From a virus: a stretch of 35,335 nucleotides of DNA. A model generated the notes under the pieces. That model searched no databases and had not been told where the DNA came from. It saw only the letters and a program-made list of their open reading frames with translations. Positions within the stretch are counted from its first letter, which is position 1. The number at the start of each line of letters is the position of its first letter. The DNA lies in the IMG/VR virus record IMGVR_UViG_3300010354_000267, positions 1-35,335 of that record. One strand, written 5' to 3'. Made by a program: the position numbers and the translations under genes. Positions 14,915-26,160 of this stretch are shown one piece after another.

Positions 14915-16855
14915 ATGAGCGAGTCACACAGTCTTCCGACACCATATCAGCAATTCATCCATCTCAGTCGTTACAGCAGATGGTTGCCTGATCATGGACG
15001 CAGAGAATCTTGGGAGGAGACTGTTGATCGCTATTTCAACTTCTTCGACAAGCACCTGAAGGAAAACCACAAGTTCCGCCTGTCCAAGGATGTTCGTGAG
15101 GAACTGCGAAGTGCGGTGTTGAACCTTGAAGTTCTTCCTTCGATGCGTTGCCTCATGACGGCAGGAGAAGCATTGGAGCGTGACAACATCGCAGGATACA
15201 ACTGCTCCTACGCACACATCAACCGTGTCCGTGCATTCGATGAGATTCTGTATGTCCTTATGTGCGGCACGGGCGTGGGCTTTTCCGTTGAGCGTGAGTT
15301 CGTTGACAAGTTGCCCACCATCGCAGAGGAGTTCTCGGACACCGACACCACGATCATCGTTGCCGATTCCAAGCAAGGATGGGCAAAGGCATATCGTGAA
15401 CTTGTTTCATTGCTTATCGTTGGTCAGGTTCCCAAATGGGATGTCTCCAAGGTTCGTCCTGCGGGTGCGAGGCTGAAGGTATTCGGTGGTCGTGCAAGCG
15501 GTCCTCGTCCGCTTGAAGATCTTTTCAAGTTCACCGTGGAGACATTCAAGAGGGCGGCGGGTCGCAAGTTGACTTCCATCGAATGCCATGACATCGTTTG
15601 CAAGATCGCAGAGATCGTTGTGGTGGGCGGTGTTCGCCGTTCTGCATTGATTTCACTTTCGAATCTCACGGACGAGCGTATGCGTGATGCAAAGAGTGGC
15701 GCATGGTGGGAAGCAAACCCGCAGAGGGCATTGTCCAACAACAGCGTTGCCTACAAGGAGAAGCCCGAAATCGGCACCTTCATGGAAGAGTGGCTGTCGC
15801 TCTACAAGTCCAAGAGCGGTGAGCGTGGCATCTTCAATCGTGCAGCAGCACAGAAGACGATTGCAAAACTCGGTGATCGGCGTGATCCAAATCATGCATT
15901 CGGAACCAACCCATGCAGCGAGATCATCCTGCGTGACCGTGAGTTCTGCAACCTCACCGAAGTGGTTGTTCGTGCAAACGACACCCCCGAATCCCTGAAG
16001 CGCAAGGTTCGCCTTGCTACGATCCTCGGAACGATGCAAGCCTCCCTCACCAATTTCCAATACATTTCCTCGGAATGGTCGAAGAACTGTCGTGAAGAAG
16101 CCTTGCTCGGCGTTTCGCTGACAGGCATCCTTGACTGCATGTACACCAATACCAACGATGAAAGGCTGCAAACCCTGCTGTCCCTTCTCCGTCAGGATGC
16201 GGTGGAGACCAACAAGGAGTGGGCAGACAAGATCGGCATTGAGCCATCTGCTGCAATCACTTGCGTCAAGCTATCAGGAACGGTGTCGCAGTTGACGGAC
16301 GCAGCCTCGGGCATTCATGCCCGTCATGCGCCCTATTACATCCGTACTGTTCGTGCGGACAACAAGGATCCGCTGTGTCAGATGATGAAGGAGATGGGTT
16401 TCCCGAATGAAGCAGATATCATGAAGCCGGAACACACCACCGTGTTCTCGTTTCCCATGAAGTCTCCCGACCGATCCGTGTTCCGCAAGGATATGACAGC
16501 ATTGCAGCACCTTGAACTGTGGCTGACATATCAGCGTTATTGGTGCGAACACAAGCCGTCCATCACGGTGACCGTAAAGGAGCATGAATGGATGGAAGTC
16601 GGCGCATGGGTCTACAAGCACTTTGACGAAGTGTCGGGAATCTCATTTCTGCCTTTTGCAGACCATTCCTATCAACAGGCTCCTTATCAGGACTGCACCA
16701 AGGAGGAATACGATTCCCTCCTTGCCAAGATGCCAAAAGATGTTGATTGGAGTCTTCTCCGCAACTACGAGAAGGAAGACCATACGGTTGGAAACCAAAC
16801 ATTTGCTTGCTCGGGAGACAAGTGCGAGGTGGTTGACCTGACCCGAACTGGCTAA
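14915..16855 (+). CDS. nrdJ: Adenosylcobalamin-dependent (class II) ribonucleotide reductase, monomeric type
   Basis: 646 residues, ATG after AGGAG. The enzyme would reduce ribonucleotides (triphosphates in the Lactobacillus leichmannii type) to deoxyribonucleotides using B12. The pattern NPCSEIILRDREFC at residues 332-345 gives C334, E336 and C345, spaced exactly as the thiyl-radical Cys408, Glu410 and Cys419 of the L. leichmannii enzyme. C97 in GYNCSYAHI fits the partner of its Cys119. The C-terminal C632-x4-C637 matches the re-reducing pair. Other class II signatures are MCGTGVGFSVE (about 116-126), GVRRSALISL (about 239-248) and LSGTVSQLTDAASGIHARH. It is shorter than the 739-residue bacterial enzyme. 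No NrdA/NrdB or NrdD is present in the window. Likely served by host thioredoxin and host cobalamin. Confidence 0.95.
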   Translation: MSESHSLPTPYQQFIHLSRYSRWLPDHGRRESWEETVDRYFNFFDKHLKENHKFRLSKDVREELRSAVLNLEVLPSMRCLMTAGEALERDNIAGYNCSYAHINRVRAFDEILYVLMCGTGVGFSVEREFVDKLPTIAEEFSDTDTTIIVADSKQGWAKAYRELVSLLIVGQVPKWDVSKVRPAGARLKVFGGRASGPRPLEDLFKFTVETFKRAAGRKLTSIECHDIVCKIAEIVVVGGVRRSALISLSNLTDERMRDAKSGAWWEANPQRALSNNSVAYKEKPEIGTFMEEWLSLYKSKSGERGIFNRAAAQKTIAKLGDRRDPNHAFGTNPCSEIILRDREFCNLTEVVVRANDTPESLKRKVRLATILGTMQASLTNFQYISSEWSKNCREEALLGVSLTGILDCMYTNTNDERLQTLLSLLRQDAVETNKEWADKIGIEPSAAITCVKLSGTVSQLTDAASGIHARHAPYYIRTVRADNKDPLCQMMKEMGFPNEADIMKPEHTTVFSFPMKSPDRSVFRKDMTALQHLELWLTYQRYWCEHKPSITVTVKEHEWMEVGAWVYKHFDEVSGISFLPFADHSYQQAPYQDCTKEEYDSLLAKMPKDVDWSLLRNYEKEDHTVGNQTFACSGDKCEVVDLTRTG

Positions 16856-18701: not shown

Positions 18702-21047
18702 ATGCCAAACCAATACTTTCAACTGTACAACCATGCCTACTCGTTCGAAACGAGTCAGGTATTTTCCGGCGGCGTAACCTATTCGCTTCCGCAGAATGAC
18801 TATGGCATTTACGGCGATCAAGTCGATGCCTATTTCAACACCATTTCAGAGAGCGTAGGAGCCACGGGGAACCTCGCTGTGTGGTTCGTGGCAGACAAGG
18901 GTCTGACTTACTATCGGGACGATCCTGGGGCATCTGCGGCGGTTACTGGGTATATCGAAGGACGCTTCCCGGTAACGCCATCCACACAAGGATTGGGATT
19001 GGTAGATTTAAGGGGTGCGCCCGAGTGGAAGCATTTGATTGGAGATGGCATCATCGGTCCAACTTTGGCTTCCACCCAATCGGTAACATCATATTCTGGA
19101 ATCACAGGATATGTCCAATCAATATCCCTTCTGATGAGATTCTTGTCAGCAAGGTATCCAAACATCGATTGGGCAATTGCGGGACTTCCCCATTTGCCGT
19201 TTCAAATGCCTCTTGCGCCCACGGGCGGGTCTGCGCCCGTGTGGGACGCTTCTCTCACCAACACGGGAAGTTATGGTGGTTGGTGGGATGTATCGCACCC
19301 AAAAGGCACCACAAATCTTCTCTATGATTGGCAAGGCGCACCAACAGAACTGAAAGACTTCTACACGGGAATTGCAAGAGAAGGAATTCAACGATACATT
19401 TTTGACACATGCTTTGATGACATCGGTTGGGTTTGCCCGGACATCAGGACTCCGTTTGTTTCGGAGCAAGAGTTTTATCAGTATGGATACAATCCAGAAT
19501 CGAACTATGAAAGAAATCTCAACCTGAACCTGATTGCTTCGGAGTGGGCACTTGAGAAATTCTCGGTAAGTTACCCGATGGTTTCTCCGATGCACCCCAC
19601 ACGGGGATTGAATGTGTATGACGCATCGAACGGAAGATTCCTTGCAATCGACTACAACGATCAGACGGGCGCATATTCAATAACGGCAGCATCATTCACG
19701 GGTTCATCCGGATCCGCAAGAGACAACTTTTATTCCGCTTTTCAGTTCCGTGTTGACATGCTTGCTCCAGCAATTGAAGGTGAAGCGAACGGATTTGTTT
19801 ATTACGATCCAATCCCCACGATGATTGACGCTGCATGTACAGGAAACATTTCTGTAGGAGCAACGGGATATGTCGCACAGGTGAGAAGCAGAAACACTTT
19901 TTCCTCGCTGTTCTATGGCGGTTCATATCAAGACGGTTATGCACCATCAGGAAGCGGTTATGCTGATCCATGCGTCAAAACAGATTTGCTGCAAAATGCA
20001 TCAAAAGCCACAATAGCCTACTTGAATGAAATCCGTGAAGCAGTAAATCTTGAAGCACCCGGTTCGCCGCCGCAAACTCTCCTGATGCGAAATGGGTATA
20101 TCAATCCTACTTTAAATCCATATGCCCCGGCATTCGTCAGAAACAATAGTGCAATTGTAAACCAGAGACCAGCACTCACAGATGCACTTCCATGGGTGCC
20201 CGGAGGAGGGGGAGGGGGAGGACCAGACAATTGCTGTCCACCGCCATGCGAAACTCCAAATTGCACATCGACCCAAACAGGGTTTGATCTGTCTCGGTGC
20301 AGCAATACATTGAATGAAGATTGCAAAATCGAGGCTATATGTGACAACGATCTTGATGATGGACTGCCAGGAAATGTATGCAACTCATGCACATTCAAAT
20401 CCTTGGATGTTGATTGCTCAAATGCATGTCCGTGTGGATGTAATGGAGGAACATACACTCTATCAAGAGATGATATTGCAAATCTTTTGAATGGATCTAG
20501 GCTTGGAAGTGCGAATTCATGTCGTCCCCAAAGTCCTCCGATAGACATCGGTGGCTTGCCAAGTAATTGCACAGTCATTGTGCCAGACGCTGATGATTCT
20601 GTGTGGGATGAATTTATTGACTTTGACCCAAACGCTGGTGTTGGCCCGTGCTGCGCCGTGACTTGCCTGTGTGCGGTTAATGTTACATATCAAACAGACT
20701 GTAGCGGCGGTGACGGTATTCCACTTGCTCCATTTCCCATGAATGGTAGAACATATCCATACGACATCAAAACACTAGGCGTTTATTCAAATGATGTTGT
20801 GGTCATACACAATTTACGCAACTACGAAAGATCAACCAACTCTGTCACTTCATTCAATTCAATGGTAAACAGAAAACGGTCTTTGCCATGGAAACGGGTC
20901 TATCAAAGCAAGATCGACAAAAATGCGTATGCTACATTCACACAGTCGCTGGATACGATTTTGAAGCCTGAACAGTCTGTCCCTGCGATCAAAACGCATT
21001 ACGAGAAAGATCCGATCCGCCACTATCCCGGCAAGTACTTCACCTAA
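18702..21047 (+). CDS. Large virion-type protein with cysteine-rich C-terminal region
   Basis: 781 residues. The N-terminal 500 residues look globular and are rich in Tyr, Trp and Gly (ATGNLAVWFVADKGLTYY, YPNIDWAIAGLPHLPF, YIFDTCFDDIGWVCPD); an alpha/beta barrel-like enzyme domain is conceivable but I cannot name one. A seven-Gly linker near residue 507 leads to a region of about 160 residues with 20 cysteines (NCCPPPC, VCNSC, CPCGC, GPCCAVTCLC). The last 80 residues are basic and cysteine-free (NRKRSLPWKRVYQSK). The design recalls the cysteine-rich protein at 12460 and the block in the first fibre gene. It is preceded by a late promoter and followed by the small membrane peptide. A virion role is inferred from type, size and late promoter only. 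Confidence 0.6.
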   Translation: MPNQYFQLYNHAYSFETSQVFSGGVTYSLPQNDYGIYGDQVDAYFNTISESVGATGNLAVWFVADKGLTYYRDDPGASAAVTGYIEGRFPVTPSTQGLGLVDLRGAPEWKHLIGDGIIGPTLASTQSVTSYSGITGYVQSISLLMRFLSARYPNIDWAIAGLPHLPFQMPLAPTGGSAPVWDASLTNTGSYGGWWDVSHPKGTTNLLYDWQGAPTELKDFYTGIAREGIQRYIFDTCFDDIGWVCPDIRTPFVSEQEFYQYGYNPESNYERNLNLNLIASEWALEKFSVSYPMVSPMHPTRGLNVYDASNGRFLAIDYNDQTGAYSITAASFTGSSGSARDNFYSAFQFRVDMLAPAIEGEANGFVYYDPIPTMIDAACTGNISVGATGYVAQVRSRNTFSSLFYGGSYQDGYAPSGSGYADPCVKTDLLQNASKATIAYLNEIREAVNLEAPGSPPQTLLMRNGYINPTLNPYAPAFVRNNSAIVNQRPALTDALPWVPGGGGGGGPDNCCPPPCETPNCTSTQTGFDLSRCSNTLNEDCKIEAICDNDLDDGLPGNVCNSCTFKSLDVDCSNACPCGCNGGTYTLSRDDIANLLNGSRLGSANSCRPQSPPIDIGGLPSNCTVIVPDADDSVWDEFIDFDPNAGVGPCCAVTCLCAVNVTYQTDCSGGDGIPLAPFPMNGRTYPYDIKTLGVYSNDVVVIHNLRNYERSTNSVTSFNSMVNRKRSLPWKRVYQSKIDKNAYATFTQSLDTILKPEQSVPAIKTHYEKDPIRHYPGKYFT

Positions 21048-21247: not shown

Positions 21248-22945
21248 ATGATTACATTCAAGAAGATTCGTTGGAAGAATTTCCTTTCGACAGGAAACAA
21301 CTTCACCGAAATTCAGTTGGACAAAACTGATAGCACCCTCATCTTGGGTGAAAACGGGGCGGGTAAGAGTACCCTTTTGGATGCTCTTACCTTTGTCCTT
21401 TTCAACAAGCCCTATCGAAACATCAATCTTCCCCAATTGGTCTGCTCCGTGAACGAGAAAGACTGCTTGGTTGAGATTGAGTTTTCTGATGGAAAGTCAG
21501 AATACAAAGTCGTTCGTGGGCAGGCACCGAAGGTCTTTGATATTTGGAAAGACGGAAAATTGCTTGATCAGGATTCCAAGGCAAAGGACGGACAGAAGAT
21601 GTTCGAAGACCTTATTCTTGGAATGAACTACAAGTCGTTTTGCCAAGTTGTCATTCTTGGCTCGGCAAACTATGTTCCGTTTATGCGACTTACCGCAGCA
21701 GAAAGACGGGCTGTGGTGGAATCGATTCTTGATATCGGTGTGTTCTCATCAATGAACACCCACCTGAAGGAGCGGATAAGCACCAACAAAGAAGAACTTC
21801 AACATGCGGAATCCGCATTAGCAGTTGCCAAAGAGCGAGTCATCCTTCTGAAGAAGATGGTTGATGACGAAAAGAAGCGCAGTCAAATTGATGATGCGTG
21901 GATCGCAGAACAGACGGAAACGGCAAACCAATCAATCAAGCAAGCAAAGATTGATGTGGAGACTGCGCTTGCACAGGTCGATCAGTTGACCGAGACCATT
22001 TCCGACAGCAGCAAAGTCTTGAATACCCACGACAAGTATGGTGAATTGAAGAGACAAATCGATAAGAAAATGTCTGCTCTGAAGAAGGAAATTGCTTTCT
22101 ATCAGACAAATGACAGTTGCCCAACATGCTCACAAAAGATCGATGATCAATTCAAGAACACAACGATCAACAAGGGCGAGGAAAAGATCAAGGAGATGGA
22201 CAAGGCTATCACCGATTTGATCCGTGAGCAAGACATCGCCGCAGCAAGACTGACGGAGATCGGAAAAATCAACGAAGAAATACGAAAGTTGAATGCGTTG
22301 ATTCTCAAGAAGTCGAACGAAATAGAGACCACGGAAAAACACATCAAGACGATTTCTGCCAAGAAGTTGACGAATACATCGACTTCGGAAGAAGACTTGA
22401 TCAAGGCGGTATCAAATGAAAGTGATGCAATTGATGAGAAAAAGGACTTGATTGAAGAGCAGCACTATCTGTCTCTTGCTTCGACTTTGCTGAAGGATTC
22501 GGGAATCAAGAGCAGGATAATCAAGAACTACATTCCCGTAATCAACACGACCATCAACAGTTACCTGACGCAGATGAATTTTTTCGTCAACTTTCACCTT
22601 GATGAGGAGTTCAACGAAACAATCAAGTCTCGTCACCGTGATGTGTTCACATACGCATCTTTCAGCGAAGGCGAAAAGAAGAAGATCGATCTTGCCTTGC
22701 TTTTTGCATGGAGATCGATTGCTTCTATCAAGAATTCAATTACAACGAATCTGCTGATCCTTGATGAGATTCTTGATGGCAGTCTTGATGATCAGGCTAC
22801 CGATGCCTTTTTGGACATTATGGCTAATACGAAGGCGGGTACAAATACCTTCGTGATTAGCCATAAGCCCAAAGAAGTGCTTCAGGACAAGTTTGACCGC
22901 TGCATTCAGTTTGCCAAGCGTGGCAATTTCAGCAGGGTGTCTTGA
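21248..22945 (+). CDS. 46: gp46, Rad50/SbcC-like recombination nuclease subunit
   Basis: 565 residues, close to the length of T4 gp46. It is the ATPase subunit that with gp47 resects DNA ends for recombination-dependent replication and helps degrade host DNA. Walker A is GENGAGKST at residues 34-42. Long coiled-coil arms (about 170-290 and 295-400) flank the zinc hook CPTC at 291-294. The signature motif lies in SFSEGEKKKIDLALLFAW near 470-487, and Walker B is LLILDEI with D506 and E507. All key motifs are intact. The gene has its own host-type promoter, and its stop abuts the stop of the convergent gene at 22946 (the palindrome TGATCA holds both). It is separated from gp47, which is on the other strand. 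Confidence 0.95.
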   Translation: MITFKKIRWKNFLSTGNNFTEIQLDKTDSTLILGENGAGKSTLLDALTFVLFNKPYRNINLPQLVCSVNEKDCLVEIEFSDGKSEYKVVRGQAPKVFDIWKDGKLLDQDSKAKDGQKMFEDLILGMNYKSFCQVVILGSANYVPFMRLTAAERRAVVESILDIGVFSSMNTHLKERISTNKEELQHAESALAVAKERVILLKKMVDDEKKRSQIDDAWIAEQTETANQSIKQAKIDVETALAQVDQLTETISDSSKVLNTHDKYGELKRQIDKKMSALKKEIAFYQTNDSCPTCSQKIDDQFKNTTINKGEEKIKEMDKAITDLIREQDIAAARLTEIGKINEEIRKLNALILKKSNEIETTEKHIKTISAKKLTNTSTSEEDLIKAVSNESDAIDEKKDLIEEQHYLSLASTLLKDSGIKSRIIKNYIPVINTTINSYLTQMNFFVNFHLDEEFNETIKSRHRDVFTYASFSEGEKKKIDLALLFAWRSIASIKNSITTNLLILDEILDGSLDDQATDAFLDIMANTKAGTNTFVISHKPKEVLQDKFDRCIQFAKRGNFSRVS

Positions 22946-23263
22946 TCAGGGTGCAACCAACTTCAGCGAAGCGGGTGCTTCCTGAATGTCGTTGTCTGGA
23001 ACAAGCAGTCCGGAACCGAAATTGCTGTTGTAGTCATTGACTAGTTGCGTCTTCACGGGCGCAACGAATGCCACGGCACTCTTTGGAAGTGTCATGCCTT
23101 CTGTTTCGCAATATGGTAGCCAAGGAGCCAGTCCCAACTTTCCATTACCGATTGGCAGAAGAATTGCGGGATTCTTGATTGTCCAACCCGTGTTCACTTC
23201 TTCCATCAACTTGGCAAGGACTTCCTCGCCCGAATTCAATCTAAACAATTTCACTTCACTCAT
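22946..23263 (-). CDS. Small conserved phage protein, possibly Sm-like
   Basis: 105 residues from the ATG at 23263, preceded by GGAGG; the longer reading from 23305 lacks such a site. The N-terminus VKLFRLNSGEEVLAKLMEEV, followed by WTIKNPAILLP, is the beta-strand pattern of a small family common in T4-like marine phages that I would compare with Sm/LSm folds. The protein at 26952 has the same opening (IRLVRMMTGELLVAGI, then YILEKPMGIYAI). The function is unknown. It lies 38 bases downstream of the trypsin-like gene and is probably the last gene of the leftward unit that starts at gp55. Confidence 0.6.
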   Translation of the reverse strand: MSEVKLFRLNSGEEVLAKLMEEVNTGWTIKNPAILLPIGNGKLGLAPWLPYCETEGMTLPKSAVAFVAPVKTQLVNDYNSNFGSGLLVPDNDIQEAPASLKLVAP

Positions 23264-23301
23264 TTTGATACCTCCTGTAGGTCTTGTATGTAGGCGGGGG
23301 T

Positions 23302-24888
23302 TCAAATAAACCCGAGCGGGAAGGGGTACTTTTCAGGAGATATACCCAACTGTATCTTTGCTGCTGCTGCCGTAATGTCCGAACTTCCCCCAACAGTAAT
23401 CATGTAGAGATTAAGAACATCAATCGGAGCAATTTGCGCTCCCCAAGGAAAAGTGTATTTTTTGGACGATCCCAATCCAAGACCAACGATATCCGCATAA
23501 GCACCGCCGTTGTATCCGATGTTATTGACAAATCCGAGGAAAATTGGTTTACCATCATAGTAGGTGATTACGGAACCACCACGATCTCCGGTAAGCATTG
23601 CGCCGATTGACATGTCTTCGGGCATTCCCGGCATTGTCAACGAACGGCGAATTCTTTCGCACCCTGTTGTTCTGCAACATTCGCCGCCTATCACTAGCGG
23701 GAACGGAAACGAACCACATCCGTGATTGTGATTGAAACTTACTTTCGCTTTGCCTGTTGTGTTGTTCCCTGTGAGTGGTGGGCAGAAAACCCCAACGCTG
23801 CCTCTTCCATCTTGACCAAAAACCATGGAGTAATAAACCATGTCGCTTTCTTGAGGATCGTAAAGCGAAATCGGAAGCACATCCGCAGGCAAATCGTTTG
23901 CGAATTTGAGTATCTTCAAGCCGCTGAAGTGTGCTGACAGCCCTTGGTAAGATTCCCATCCCGGTTGATCTTGTGCAATCGGATTGAACATACTATTCCA
24001 AAGTTGCTCAAAATTGCTGGCAGAAGATGCAACAGTTGCTGTAGTGAGACCGTGCTGTTCGGAGTAAAATCGAAGATTGTCTGTATCAATGTCCGAATTT
24101 GCATTGACAATTGCATGTCTTCTTCCGATCAAAACCGCATAGTTGCCCTTTCCGTCCGAAAGAGCATTGTACGGAATAGGTCTATTTCTTCTGTATGGGA
24201 TGTTTGACCAAGAATAGTCTAGCAATCCAAATTCATTGCCCGTCATGAAACTGTCGTTGAACGGATTTTTGTGATCAACATTCAACCTTGGCTGACCGAC
24301 ATAATTGAACACATCATGGTAATTGGGGATATAGGTTGCTTCATAGATGGAACCTTTCAGCCACCCACGACAATCGCTTCCATCCAATTCATTAACCGCT
24401 GTTGCTCCTTCGCAGACGCACTCAAGTTCTTTTGTATACCCCTTGAATGGTCCTGAGTAGTATCTCCTTGCTCCACTACTTTCTCCAACAAATACCGATC
24501 CTTTGATGAAGAAAGAATCAAATCCGCTTCCACCGCTAGTACCATCGTCTGCCAATGGCAAAGGCGACTTAATCCCGTCCCCCATCCGAATCGTAAGATT
24601 GGATTGATATGGAAGGACGAAATCGCCCCGTAGCGTAAGAGCAGAATTTTCGTTATTGCTTGATGTTCTGTCTACTTCAGATCGGAAGGTTCCTACGAAC
24701 GGGGTGTTTCCACCATCAACTCCAAATTGATATGCAGTACCCGACAACGAGTGTTCCGGCGGATAGTATACGGAAATTCTTTCTCCCTCTACAAAATCCG
24801 CACTCAATCCCGCCGTCAAGTACGGATCATAGCCGGGGAGATTGTTGGCAGCGATTACATAGAACTCTCTGTTGTGACCGAATATCAT
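23302..24888 (-). CDS. Large protein with a trypsin-like fold lacking the catalytic triad (putative pseudoprotease)
   Basis: 528 residues. Three stretches line up with the hallmark segments of chymotrypsin-type proteases. LIGRRHAIVNANS (253-265) matches the region ending in AAHC, with Asn264 in place of the catalytic His. SGLKILKFANDLPADVLPI (322-340) matches the DIALLKL strand, with Gly323 in place of Asp. GDRGGSV (434-440) followed by GKPIFLGFVNNIG matches GDSGGP and the next strand, with Arg436 in place of Ser. Order and spacing fit the family. The fold is inferred and activity is not expected. The first 200 residues are a separate beta-rich part, and CxC, GCGS and CCRTTGC motifs suggest disulphides or metal. 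It may be a virion protein. It overlaps the preceding 73-residue gene by ATGA and lies between gp46 and gp47. Confidence 0.6.
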   Translation of the reverse strand: MIFGHNREFYVIAANNLPGYDPYLTAGLSADFVEGERISVYYPPEHSLSGTAYQFGVDGGNTPFVGTFRSEVDRTSSNNENSALTLRGDFVLPYQSNLTIRMGDGIKSPLPLADDGTSGGSGFDSFFIKGSVFVGESSGARRYYSGPFKGYTKELECVCEGATAVNELDGSDCRGWLKGSIYEATYIPNYHDVFNYVGQPRLNVDHKNPFNDSFMTGNEFGLLDYSWSNIPYRRNRPIPYNALSDGKGNYAVLIGRRHAIVNANSDIDTDNLRFYSEQHGLTTATVASSASNFEQLWNSMFNPIAQDQPGWESYQGLSAHFSGLKILKFANDLPADVLPISLYDPQESDMVYYSMVFGQDGRGSVGVFCPPLTGNNTTGKAKVSFNHNHGCGSFPFPLVIGGECCRTTGCERIRRSLTMPGMPEDMSIGAMLTGDRGGSVITYYDGKPIFLGFVNNIGYNGGAYADIVGLGLGSSKKYTFPWGAQIAPIDVLNLYMITVGGSSDITAAAAKIQLGISPEKYPFPLGFI

Positions 24889-25106
24889 GTTATGCCCCCG
24901 GCACTCCAGTTTTTGTTTTTCAGTTTTGCTATGTCTTTTCGTGATGGAGATTTGTTCTGAAGTTGCCTAACAGATGGTTTTGATGCAGTATCAGACTTTC
25001 CTGTACGAAGTGACATCGCTGTAGAAACACCCTTGCCGCCCTTAAAAGTTGGGTCGATGCTCCATTCACGAATACTGTCTTTTAGATCGCTGAATGACTT
25101 GGGCAT
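24885..25106 (-). CDS. Small basic protein, hypothetical
   Basis: 73 residues from the ATG at 25106; the longer reading from 25148 would run into gp47. It begins MPKSFSDLKDSIREW and is rich in Lys, Ser and Arg, without Cys or membrane segments. Much of it is probably disordered (KGGKGVSTAMSLRTGKSD, then KSPSRKDIAKLKNK). I do not recognise it. It starts ten bases after the gp47 stop, with a late promoter motif across that junction, and its end overlaps the trypsin-like gene by ATGA. The two are probably made together; a small partner or attachment peptide for the large protein would fit. Confidence 0.5.
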   Translation of the reverse strand: MPKSFSDLKDSIREWSIDPTFKGGKGVSTAMSLRTGKSDTASKPSVRQLQNKSPSRKDIAKLKNKNWSAGGIT

Positions 25107-25113
25107 TTCATCG

Positions 25114-25120
25114 TATTTAG
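25114..25120 (-). promoter_or_regulatory. T4-type late promoter motif CTAAATA (minus strand)
   Basis: On the minus strand CTAAATA shares the TAA stop of gp47 and ends seven bases before the ATG at 25106. It would give the 73-residue gene and the trypsin-like gene a late, nearly leaderless transcript separate from gp47. Confidence 0.5.
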
Positions 25121-26160
25121 CCCTGCAATGACTCTGTGTATATCTCACGAATCAGCGTCTTTAGACGGACAGGATCAACTATGCCCTCCATCCCATCGAT
25201 TTCTTCGCATATCAGAGTGAGGGTATCTTTGCTCACATCGACCACCTGTTGGCTTTTGTTTGCTTCCTTTTCGGTCTGATCCACAATCGTTACAGAGTGA
25301 ACCGGAGCATCATTTAGACGATCCAAAAGGTTGTCAAACATGATTGGGCGATTCTTGCTCTTTACTTGAAGACGAACAAATGTGTTGCGGTATTTCTTGC
25401 AGTTGAGGATATTGTAATCCTCGTTGGTATCGTCATACACAATCTCATGGAATATCTGATGGGGGTTCTCGACAAACTCCATTTCTCCGGTGTCGGTATG
25501 GAGAATGTGGAATCCCTTTCTTTCGTTCAGGTCAGTAAATGTCATCTGATACTGTGTGCCGAGATAGTGAATGTTCTCTTTACTGTGTCTGCAATGAAAA
25601 TGTCCACTATAGACTGCATCGTAATTTCTCAAAAGGGAAGGTTCCATCCCATCATGATATTCCACCCCACGAAGAACTTCGTATCCATTGATCTCAAAAT
25701 GCCCCATGAGGATTTTTGTGTGCATTGAACGAATGAAGTTCAGGCACTCTTGTGCATTTTCTTTCGTAATCCATGGAACCAATCCGATGTCCATGCCATC
25801 CAAATCAAGAACCACCGGCGATTCATGAATCGTTATATTGGGATAGGAAGCAAAAAGTTCCACCACGGAATTCAACTTGTTCGTGTTCTTGAAGAAAACA
25901 TCGTGGTTGCCCAAAGTGACATCCATCCGCACATTCATCTCCCTCAATGGCTCAAGGAAGCGAGTTCGTACCTGATTCAATGTGTGGAAATTGACATACT
26001 TGCGGCGATCCATGAAGTCGCCAAGATGAACAATCCTGTTGATTCCTCGTTCTTTGATGGTTGGAAAGAATGTCTTTTCCCAAAACTCCATGAAATGCTC
26101 AAGGAATATTGGACTGTCGTTTCTTGCACCAAAATGGGTGTCGTTGATGATTGCAATCAT
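25117..26160 (-). CDS. 47: gp47, Mre11/SbcD-like nuclease subunit
   Basis: 347 residues. It is the metal-dependent phosphoesterase partner of gp46 in end resection. All family motifs are present: NDTHFG with D7 and H9, HLGDFMDRR with D48, TLGNHD with N85-H86-D87, MGHFE with H154, and SGHFHCRH with H187 and H189. The start overlaps the gp55 stop by ATGA, so gp55 and gp47 are translationally coupled. Unlike T4, gp46 does not follow on the same strand: a 73-residue gene and the trypsin-like gene come next, and gp46 lies convergently beyond them. Confidence 0.95.
   Translation of the reverse strand: MIAIINDTHFGARNDSPIFLEHFMEFWEKTFFPTIKERGINRIVHLGDFMDRRKYVNFHTLNQVRTRFLEPLREMNVRMDVTLGNHDVFFKNTNKLNSVVELFASYPNITIHESPVVLDLDGMDIGLVPWITKENAQECLNFIRSMHTKILMGHFEINGYEVLRGVEYHDGMEPSLLRNYDAVYSGHFHCRHSKENIHYLGTQYQMTFTDLNERKGFHILHTDTGEMEFVENPHQIFHEIVYDDTNEDYNILNCKKYRNTFVRLQVKSKNRPIMFDNLLDRLNDAPVHSVTIVDQTEKEANKSQQVVDVSKDTLTLICEEIDGMEGIVDPVRLKTLIREIYTESLQG

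Follow-up and report, generated by a model that had tools for sequence, protein, structure and literature searches.

A selectively maintained trypsin-fold pseudoprotease beside gp47 in T4-like phages and its probable use as a binding module

The window analysed here, a 35,335-nucleotide stretch of viral DNA, contains an open reading frame for a 528-residue protein among the replication genes of a T4-like phage. In the original prediction, this protein was read as a chymotrypsin-type serine protease in which all three catalytic residues had been replaced. This raises the question of whether the protein has a protease fold, whether catalysis has been lost in its relatives as well, and what such a protein could do for the phage. 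The ORF at 23302-24888 was found to lie on the minus strand, which had not been named before, and its placement between gp46 and gp47 was borne out by PHROG matches (phrog_77 and phrog_100). The genes concerned and the two parts of the protein are as follows.

18702..21047, plus strand: 781-aa protein, candidate partner of the pseudoprotease (co-divergence in L017/L018; tail in common with the L014 protease)
21248..22945, plus strand: gp46 (SbcC-like; phrog_77, E 2.5e-160), convergent with the pseudoprotease gene
22946..23305, minus strand: phrog_527 protein, 119 aa, downstream of the pseudoprotease gene
23302..24888, minus strand: pseudoprotease gene (P0001), 528 aa, ATG start; homologues adjoin gp47 in 16 or more other records
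23386..24318, minus strand: residues 191-501, predicted trypsin-fold pseudoprotease domain (AF2 model with Foldseek and VIA-align)
24319..24888, minus strand: residues 1-190, family-specific N-terminal region with no known relative (alignment)
24885..25148, minus strand: 87-aa ORF; 4-base overlap with the start of the pseudoprotease gene; L002 is arranged alike
25117..26160, minus strand: gp47 (SbcD-like nuclease; phrog_100, E 4.4e-96), upstream of the pseudoprotease gene and in the same direction

The gene is flanked by small ORFs, that of the phrog_527 protein on one side and the 87-aa ORF on the other, and the start/stop overlap with the latter likely reflects translational coupling. Its neighbourhood is made up of replication genes (gp46, gp47, gp55 and a ribonucleotide reductase), not tail genes. 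The reductase, encoded at 14915-16855 in this T4-like region, is of class II (B12-dependent) and shares ~63% identity with the enzymes from Puniceispirillum phage HMO-2011 and Sinorhizobium phage phiM6. Matches to T4-type late promoters were at chance level, with no excess, and no signal peptide was seen by eye in the pseudoprotease. In its N-terminal region, Cys157, Cys159, Cys173 and the motif GSxxxGxxSGA(K/R)R(F/Y)Y(A/S)GP(F/Y)K were conserved across the family alignment. The C-terminal extension, almost absent from the window protein, varied among L008, L013, L014 and L015, some of which had a Cys-rich extension of 250-300 aa and others one of ~65 aa.

The fold was predicted with AF2 from 15 rows of the pseudoprotease family, with no templates and no intact protease in the alignment; a model from two sequences only (pLDDT 27) was discarded. 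The pLDDT was 60 for the whole model, ~73-89 for residues 250-350 and 61-87 for residues 430-500, and it fell below 50 in residues 387-433, just ahead of the nucleophile loop. Of the 337 PDB matches that Foldseek found at E <= 0.001, the best 50 were all chymotrypsin-fold structures (E 7.6e-6). VIA-align matched model residues 191-501 with a Z score of 12.5 over 185-195 residues (rmsd 3.8-4.1), and its matches included chymotrypsin, thrombin, protein Z and HGF chains. The chymotrypsin double beta-barrel sought by structure prediction was thus obtained, and residues 191-501 are modelled, with moderate confidence, as the two six-stranded barrels of the PA clan. Because the input alignment contained no intact protease, this result is independent of the reading of the motifs.

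The motif positions were rechecked, and Asn264, Gly323 and Arg436 stand where the original prediction had put them.

24094..24132, minus strand: His57-equivalent motif LIGRRHAIVNANS, residues 253-265, Asn264 at the catalytic position
23869..23925, minus strand: Asp102-equivalent motif SGLKILKFANDLPADVLPI, residues 322-340, Gly323 at the catalytic position
23569..23589, minus strand: Ser195-equivalent motif GDRGGSV, residues 434-440, Arg436 at the nucleophile position
23515..23553, minus strand: strand after the nucleophile motif, GKPIFLGFVNNIG, residues 446-458 (alignment and model strand 447-459)

The profile of the family C-domain was aligned with trypsin-like relatives, with 100 column shuffles as the control. 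The score was 64.7, compared with 33.0 for the best shuffled control, and the global E value was 1.2e-9. Three separate, collinear local matches coincided exactly with the three catalytic motifs (His, Asp and Ser), in agreement with the proposed order of three protease-like segments. The strand after the last motif, which had also been said to fit, was aligned with TVFVGLMNGG of the intact relatives and coincided with strand 447-459 of the AF2 model. Judged by its sequence, the window protein appears to have none of the catalytic His, Asp and Ser of an active family S1 peptidase, and from these losses it is predicted to be inactive as a protease.

Catalytic loss was then followed across 14 aligned family rows. 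The His57 column (NDESSSSSEEDDEY) held N, D, E, S or Y and never His (0/14); the Ser195 column of GDxGSPV (RIVIIINNVNIINT) held R, I, V, N or T and never Ser (0/14); and the Asp102 column (GGDGNNDDDDGGDP) held G, D, N or P, with Asp in 6/14 rows. The surrounding GD-G-S-P-V was nearly invariant, and the GD-G flanks were intact in all rows except L007 (AD-G). The replacement of all three residues therefore holds for the window protein and, as far as His and Ser are concerned, for every homologue, but it does not extend to Asp, which survives in six rows. An intact His, Asp and Ser elsewhere in the protein were also sought in the family alignment and not found. Considering that there is no invariant Ser and that the catalytic columns hold varied residues, it may be concluded that the loss of catalysis is old and family-wide and that the freed positions drift. 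The C-domain evolves under purifying selection (dN/dS 0.09-0.23 in pairs with measurable dS). With the predicted fold, the absence of a triad elsewhere, the loss of His and Ser in all homologues and selection taken together, the pseudoprotease reading was supported: the protein is almost certainly a trypsin-fold pseudoprotease maintained by selection.

The distribution of the family was studied by a gp47 scan, which yielded 80 viral records; those nearest the window hold a homologue immediately after gp47. A profile scan confirmed 18 pseudoprotease loci. The gene adjoins gp47 in 16 or more T4-like records from metagenomes, the only source from which the clade is known, and it is absent from the sister group L022-L027. 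Relative to gp47, gp46 is inverted (21248-26160) in the window clade and in the sister records L023, L024, L026 and L027; L031 and G014 (L123), unlike the window clade, have a colinear gp46-gp47 order. In G014, a very distant homologue was detected by profile scan within a 1188-aa ORF (E 6.9e-16), the match covering profile positions 120-245, part of the N-terminal region; by eye, this protein has neither the catalytic His nor a GDSG motif. The ORF comes directly 3' of the gene for the G014 counterpart of the 781-aa protein, a homologue of 944 aa, and is convergent with the colinear gp46-gp47, on the strand opposite to gp47. This order indicates that the pairing of the pseudoprotease with the 781-aa protein is older than the local inversion, and the simplest reading of the window arrangement would be an inversion of the segment holding the pseudoprotease gene and gp46.

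The two paired proteins were found to diversify together. Between L017 and L018, protein identity was 99% for gp47, 98% for gp46 and within 94-100% for the phrog_527 protein and two small genes, compared with 85/79% for the N- and C-terminal parts of the pseudoprotease and 85/55% for those of the 781-aa protein. Between L011 and L014, gp47 and the N-terminal half of the pseudoprotease were 91-100% identical and its C-terminal half fell to 72-84%; L013 and L008 showed the opposite trend, with identity rising within the gene. The 781-aa protein (18702-21047) has a conserved N-terminal part, a highly variable, Cys-rich C-terminal part, with identity as low as 55% where neighbours are 98-100% identical, and a conserved tail, xxRHxPNxYFT. 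Its conserved-N/variable-C pattern appears fibre-like, and it looks like a recognition protein. Such identity patterns are like those seen when host-range genes exchange modules, and local divergence with swapping of modules, next to genes that stay conserved, would be expected of an adhesin or receptor-binding protein.

Because the catalytic His and Ser are gone and yet the gene is kept by selection and reshuffled like host-recognition genes, the protein probably binds rather than cuts. Purifying selection combined with host-range-like diversification favours a role as a binding scaffold. The best explanation overall, to which we assign a probability of about 0.6, is that an inherited, dead trypsin fold serves as a binding module together with the 781-aa protein. 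The T4-like clade would have inherited a trypsin-fold protein that was already catalytically dead. The fold would have been retained as a scaffold, with the GDxGSPV frame of the oxyanion loop and the barrel strands kept and the His and Ser positions drifting. The module may bind a host-side ligand, for example a surface polypeptide or a protease inhibitor, by its former substrate face or the loops of that face, and together with the variable 781-aa protein it may form one recognition unit on the particle or the cell surface. A recognition or adhesin role for the pseudoprotease itself is proposed tentatively, at somewhat less than even odds. Against the best explanation as a whole speak the modest pLDDT of the model with its low stretch before the nucleophile loop, the replication-gene setting, the absence of a signal peptide by eye and of an excess of late promoters, and the lack of a virion-protein profile match; any accessory gene, moreover, can diversify by recombination.

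The gp47-gp55 neighbourhood makes intracellular binding the main rival. The pseudoprotease could be expressed early with gp47 and gp55 and act in host takeover or counter-defence, for example by sequestering an antitoxin, a protease inhibitor of the host or a substrate of proteases. In the window clade, gp47, gp55 and UvsW are indeed oriented as the pseudoprotease gene is, with overlapping start and stop codons, and arms-race genes also diversify and recombine. However, the G014 homologue lies on the opposite strand to gp47 and adjoins the homologue of the 781-aa protein, which indicates that the pseudoprotease is not tied to a gp47 operon. The diversification is, moreover, common to the C-terminal part of the 781-aa protein and follows a fibre-like pattern. 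An intracellular role is therefore considered rather unlikely.

Relatives with an intact triad were found in other phages, mostly with a dockerin and with the motifs LISPKHALICEHY, PDHTLLEF and GDSGSP. This trypsin-like family comprises L014:15974-17206 (minus strand), L122:5133-6197 (minus strand) and L097-L121. The L014 protein, from the same clade as the window, has 411 aa and carries LISPKHAIICQHY, IDHSILEF and GDSGSP; scans gave ~20 more in other phages, the majority with a dockerin, and a further one in G001. Most of the intact proteins end in a type I/GC-type dockerin, and searches of PDB sequences with them mainly matched dockerins; the L122 protein matched PF00089 weakly (E 0.14). In L121, a pilin-like protein with an N-terminal methylation motif (PF07963; 1164-2249, plus strand) adjoins the intact trypsin-like gene. 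The GC-type dockerins and the pilin-like neighbour hint at hosts of a Planctomycetota-like kind.

The L014 intact protease has the same C-terminal tail as the 781-aa protein (phmmer 2.9e-8), a link between the protease fold and that module. This tail, and the presence in both G001 and G002 of a pseudoprotease copy and an intact-triad relative, would suit a dead paralogue that acts as a chaperone, inhibitor or competitor in the assembly or maturation of the 781-aa protein or of an intact protease. Against such a partnership, which is clearly unlikely, most pseudoprotease-bearing records, which are fragments, show no intact relative, and the two groups are very distant, being linked by hhalign only; this distance excludes a recent duplication.

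The invariant polar residues of the domain (H258, D266, D344, D435, T442, Y443, C369 and C391) could suggest that it is still an active hydrolase, using atypical catalytic residues in or close to the former active site. D435 is, however, the ordinary Asp194, and His258, the sole invariant His of the C-domain, is found equally beside the catalytic His of the intact relatives and is therefore structural. No invariant Ser and no conserved substitute Ser-His pair were present in the C-domains of the 14 rows, and the His and Ser positions each hold about five unrelated residues, so that hydrolysis is very improbable. A decaying pseudogene or annotation artefact, which the absence of all three catalytic residues from the window protein might suggest, was rejected on account of the full-length frames at a conserved place in more than 12 divergent phages and a dN/dS of ~0.1-0.2.

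The reading of the protein as a dead trypsin fold used as a binding module with the 781-aa protein concerns a family that was absent from the collections searched. Pfam gave no match for the pseudoprotease or its family members, apart from an unrelated one at E 0.15, and its trypsin profile did not match the family at any threshold tried. The PHROGs scan with the pseudoprotease was empty at E 10, with no profile of a known fibre, receptor-binding or other virion protein matched, and single-sequence and profile searches of PDB sequences gave chance matches only. When 50,697 annotated phage records were searched by tblastn, nothing was found for the pseudoprotease, the 1188-aa homologue, the 781-aa protein or the intact-triad relatives. 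The bacterial genome contigs scanned yielded no relative of the pseudoproteases or of the intact-triad proteins, and nothing relevant was found in the literature on phage pseudoproteases and pseudoenzymes. The statement that no phage protein of this type had been described was thus upheld for these records, Pfam, PHROGs and the searched literature, in which no trypsin-fold pseudoprotease of a tailed phage was found.

What is new is the family-wide loss, the fact that the same phages also have intact relatives, and the host-interaction-like diversification of the locus. The family offers a clean example from nature of how a protease fold has been put to another use, with the frame kept and the nucleophile and base drifting, and the intact relatives within the same phage genomes can be compared with it directly. 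Should the binding role be true, a new fold for phage recognition and an unnoticed host-interaction locus in the T4-like replication region would have been found. A broader conjecture, which is doubtful at present, is that the dead trypsin domain and the 781-aa protein form an evolvable recognition module, while these phages also exchange active, dockerin-tagged relatives, so that one fold serves phage-host contact in both a cutting and a binding version; the protein would then be the first phage pseudoprotease adhesin.

Among known systems, the chymotrypsin/trypsin peptidases (PA clan, S1; PF00089) share with the family the predicted double beta-barrel, the ordered neighbourhoods of the His, Asp and Ser motifs and the GDxGSPV loop with its Asp194 equivalent. 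They differ in that the family lacks the His57 and Ser195 equivalents throughout and the Asp102 equivalent in most members, has an extra N-terminal region of 190 residues and is not matched by the Pfam trypsin profile. Trypsin-fold pseudoproteases are familiar in animals (protein Z, HGF and haptoglobin), and in animal serine protease homologues that have lost the triad, the fold has taken on binding and been kept by selection. The phage protein has no close sequence kinship with these, and its origin and N-terminal region are different.

The intact-triad phage proteins (L014, L097-L121 and L122) have the same motif order, and their AVLIxxxHA, GDxGSP and LVGL/FLGF segments align with the family; unlike it, they have a full triad, 300-400 aa and a dockerin or a tail of the 781-aa type, and the similarity is at the profile level only. 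The receptor-binding and tail-fibre proteins of T4-like phages differ from the pseudoprotease, which has no similarity to known fibres and sits among replication genes, but both show local hypervariability against near-identical neighbours and mosaic domain swapping.
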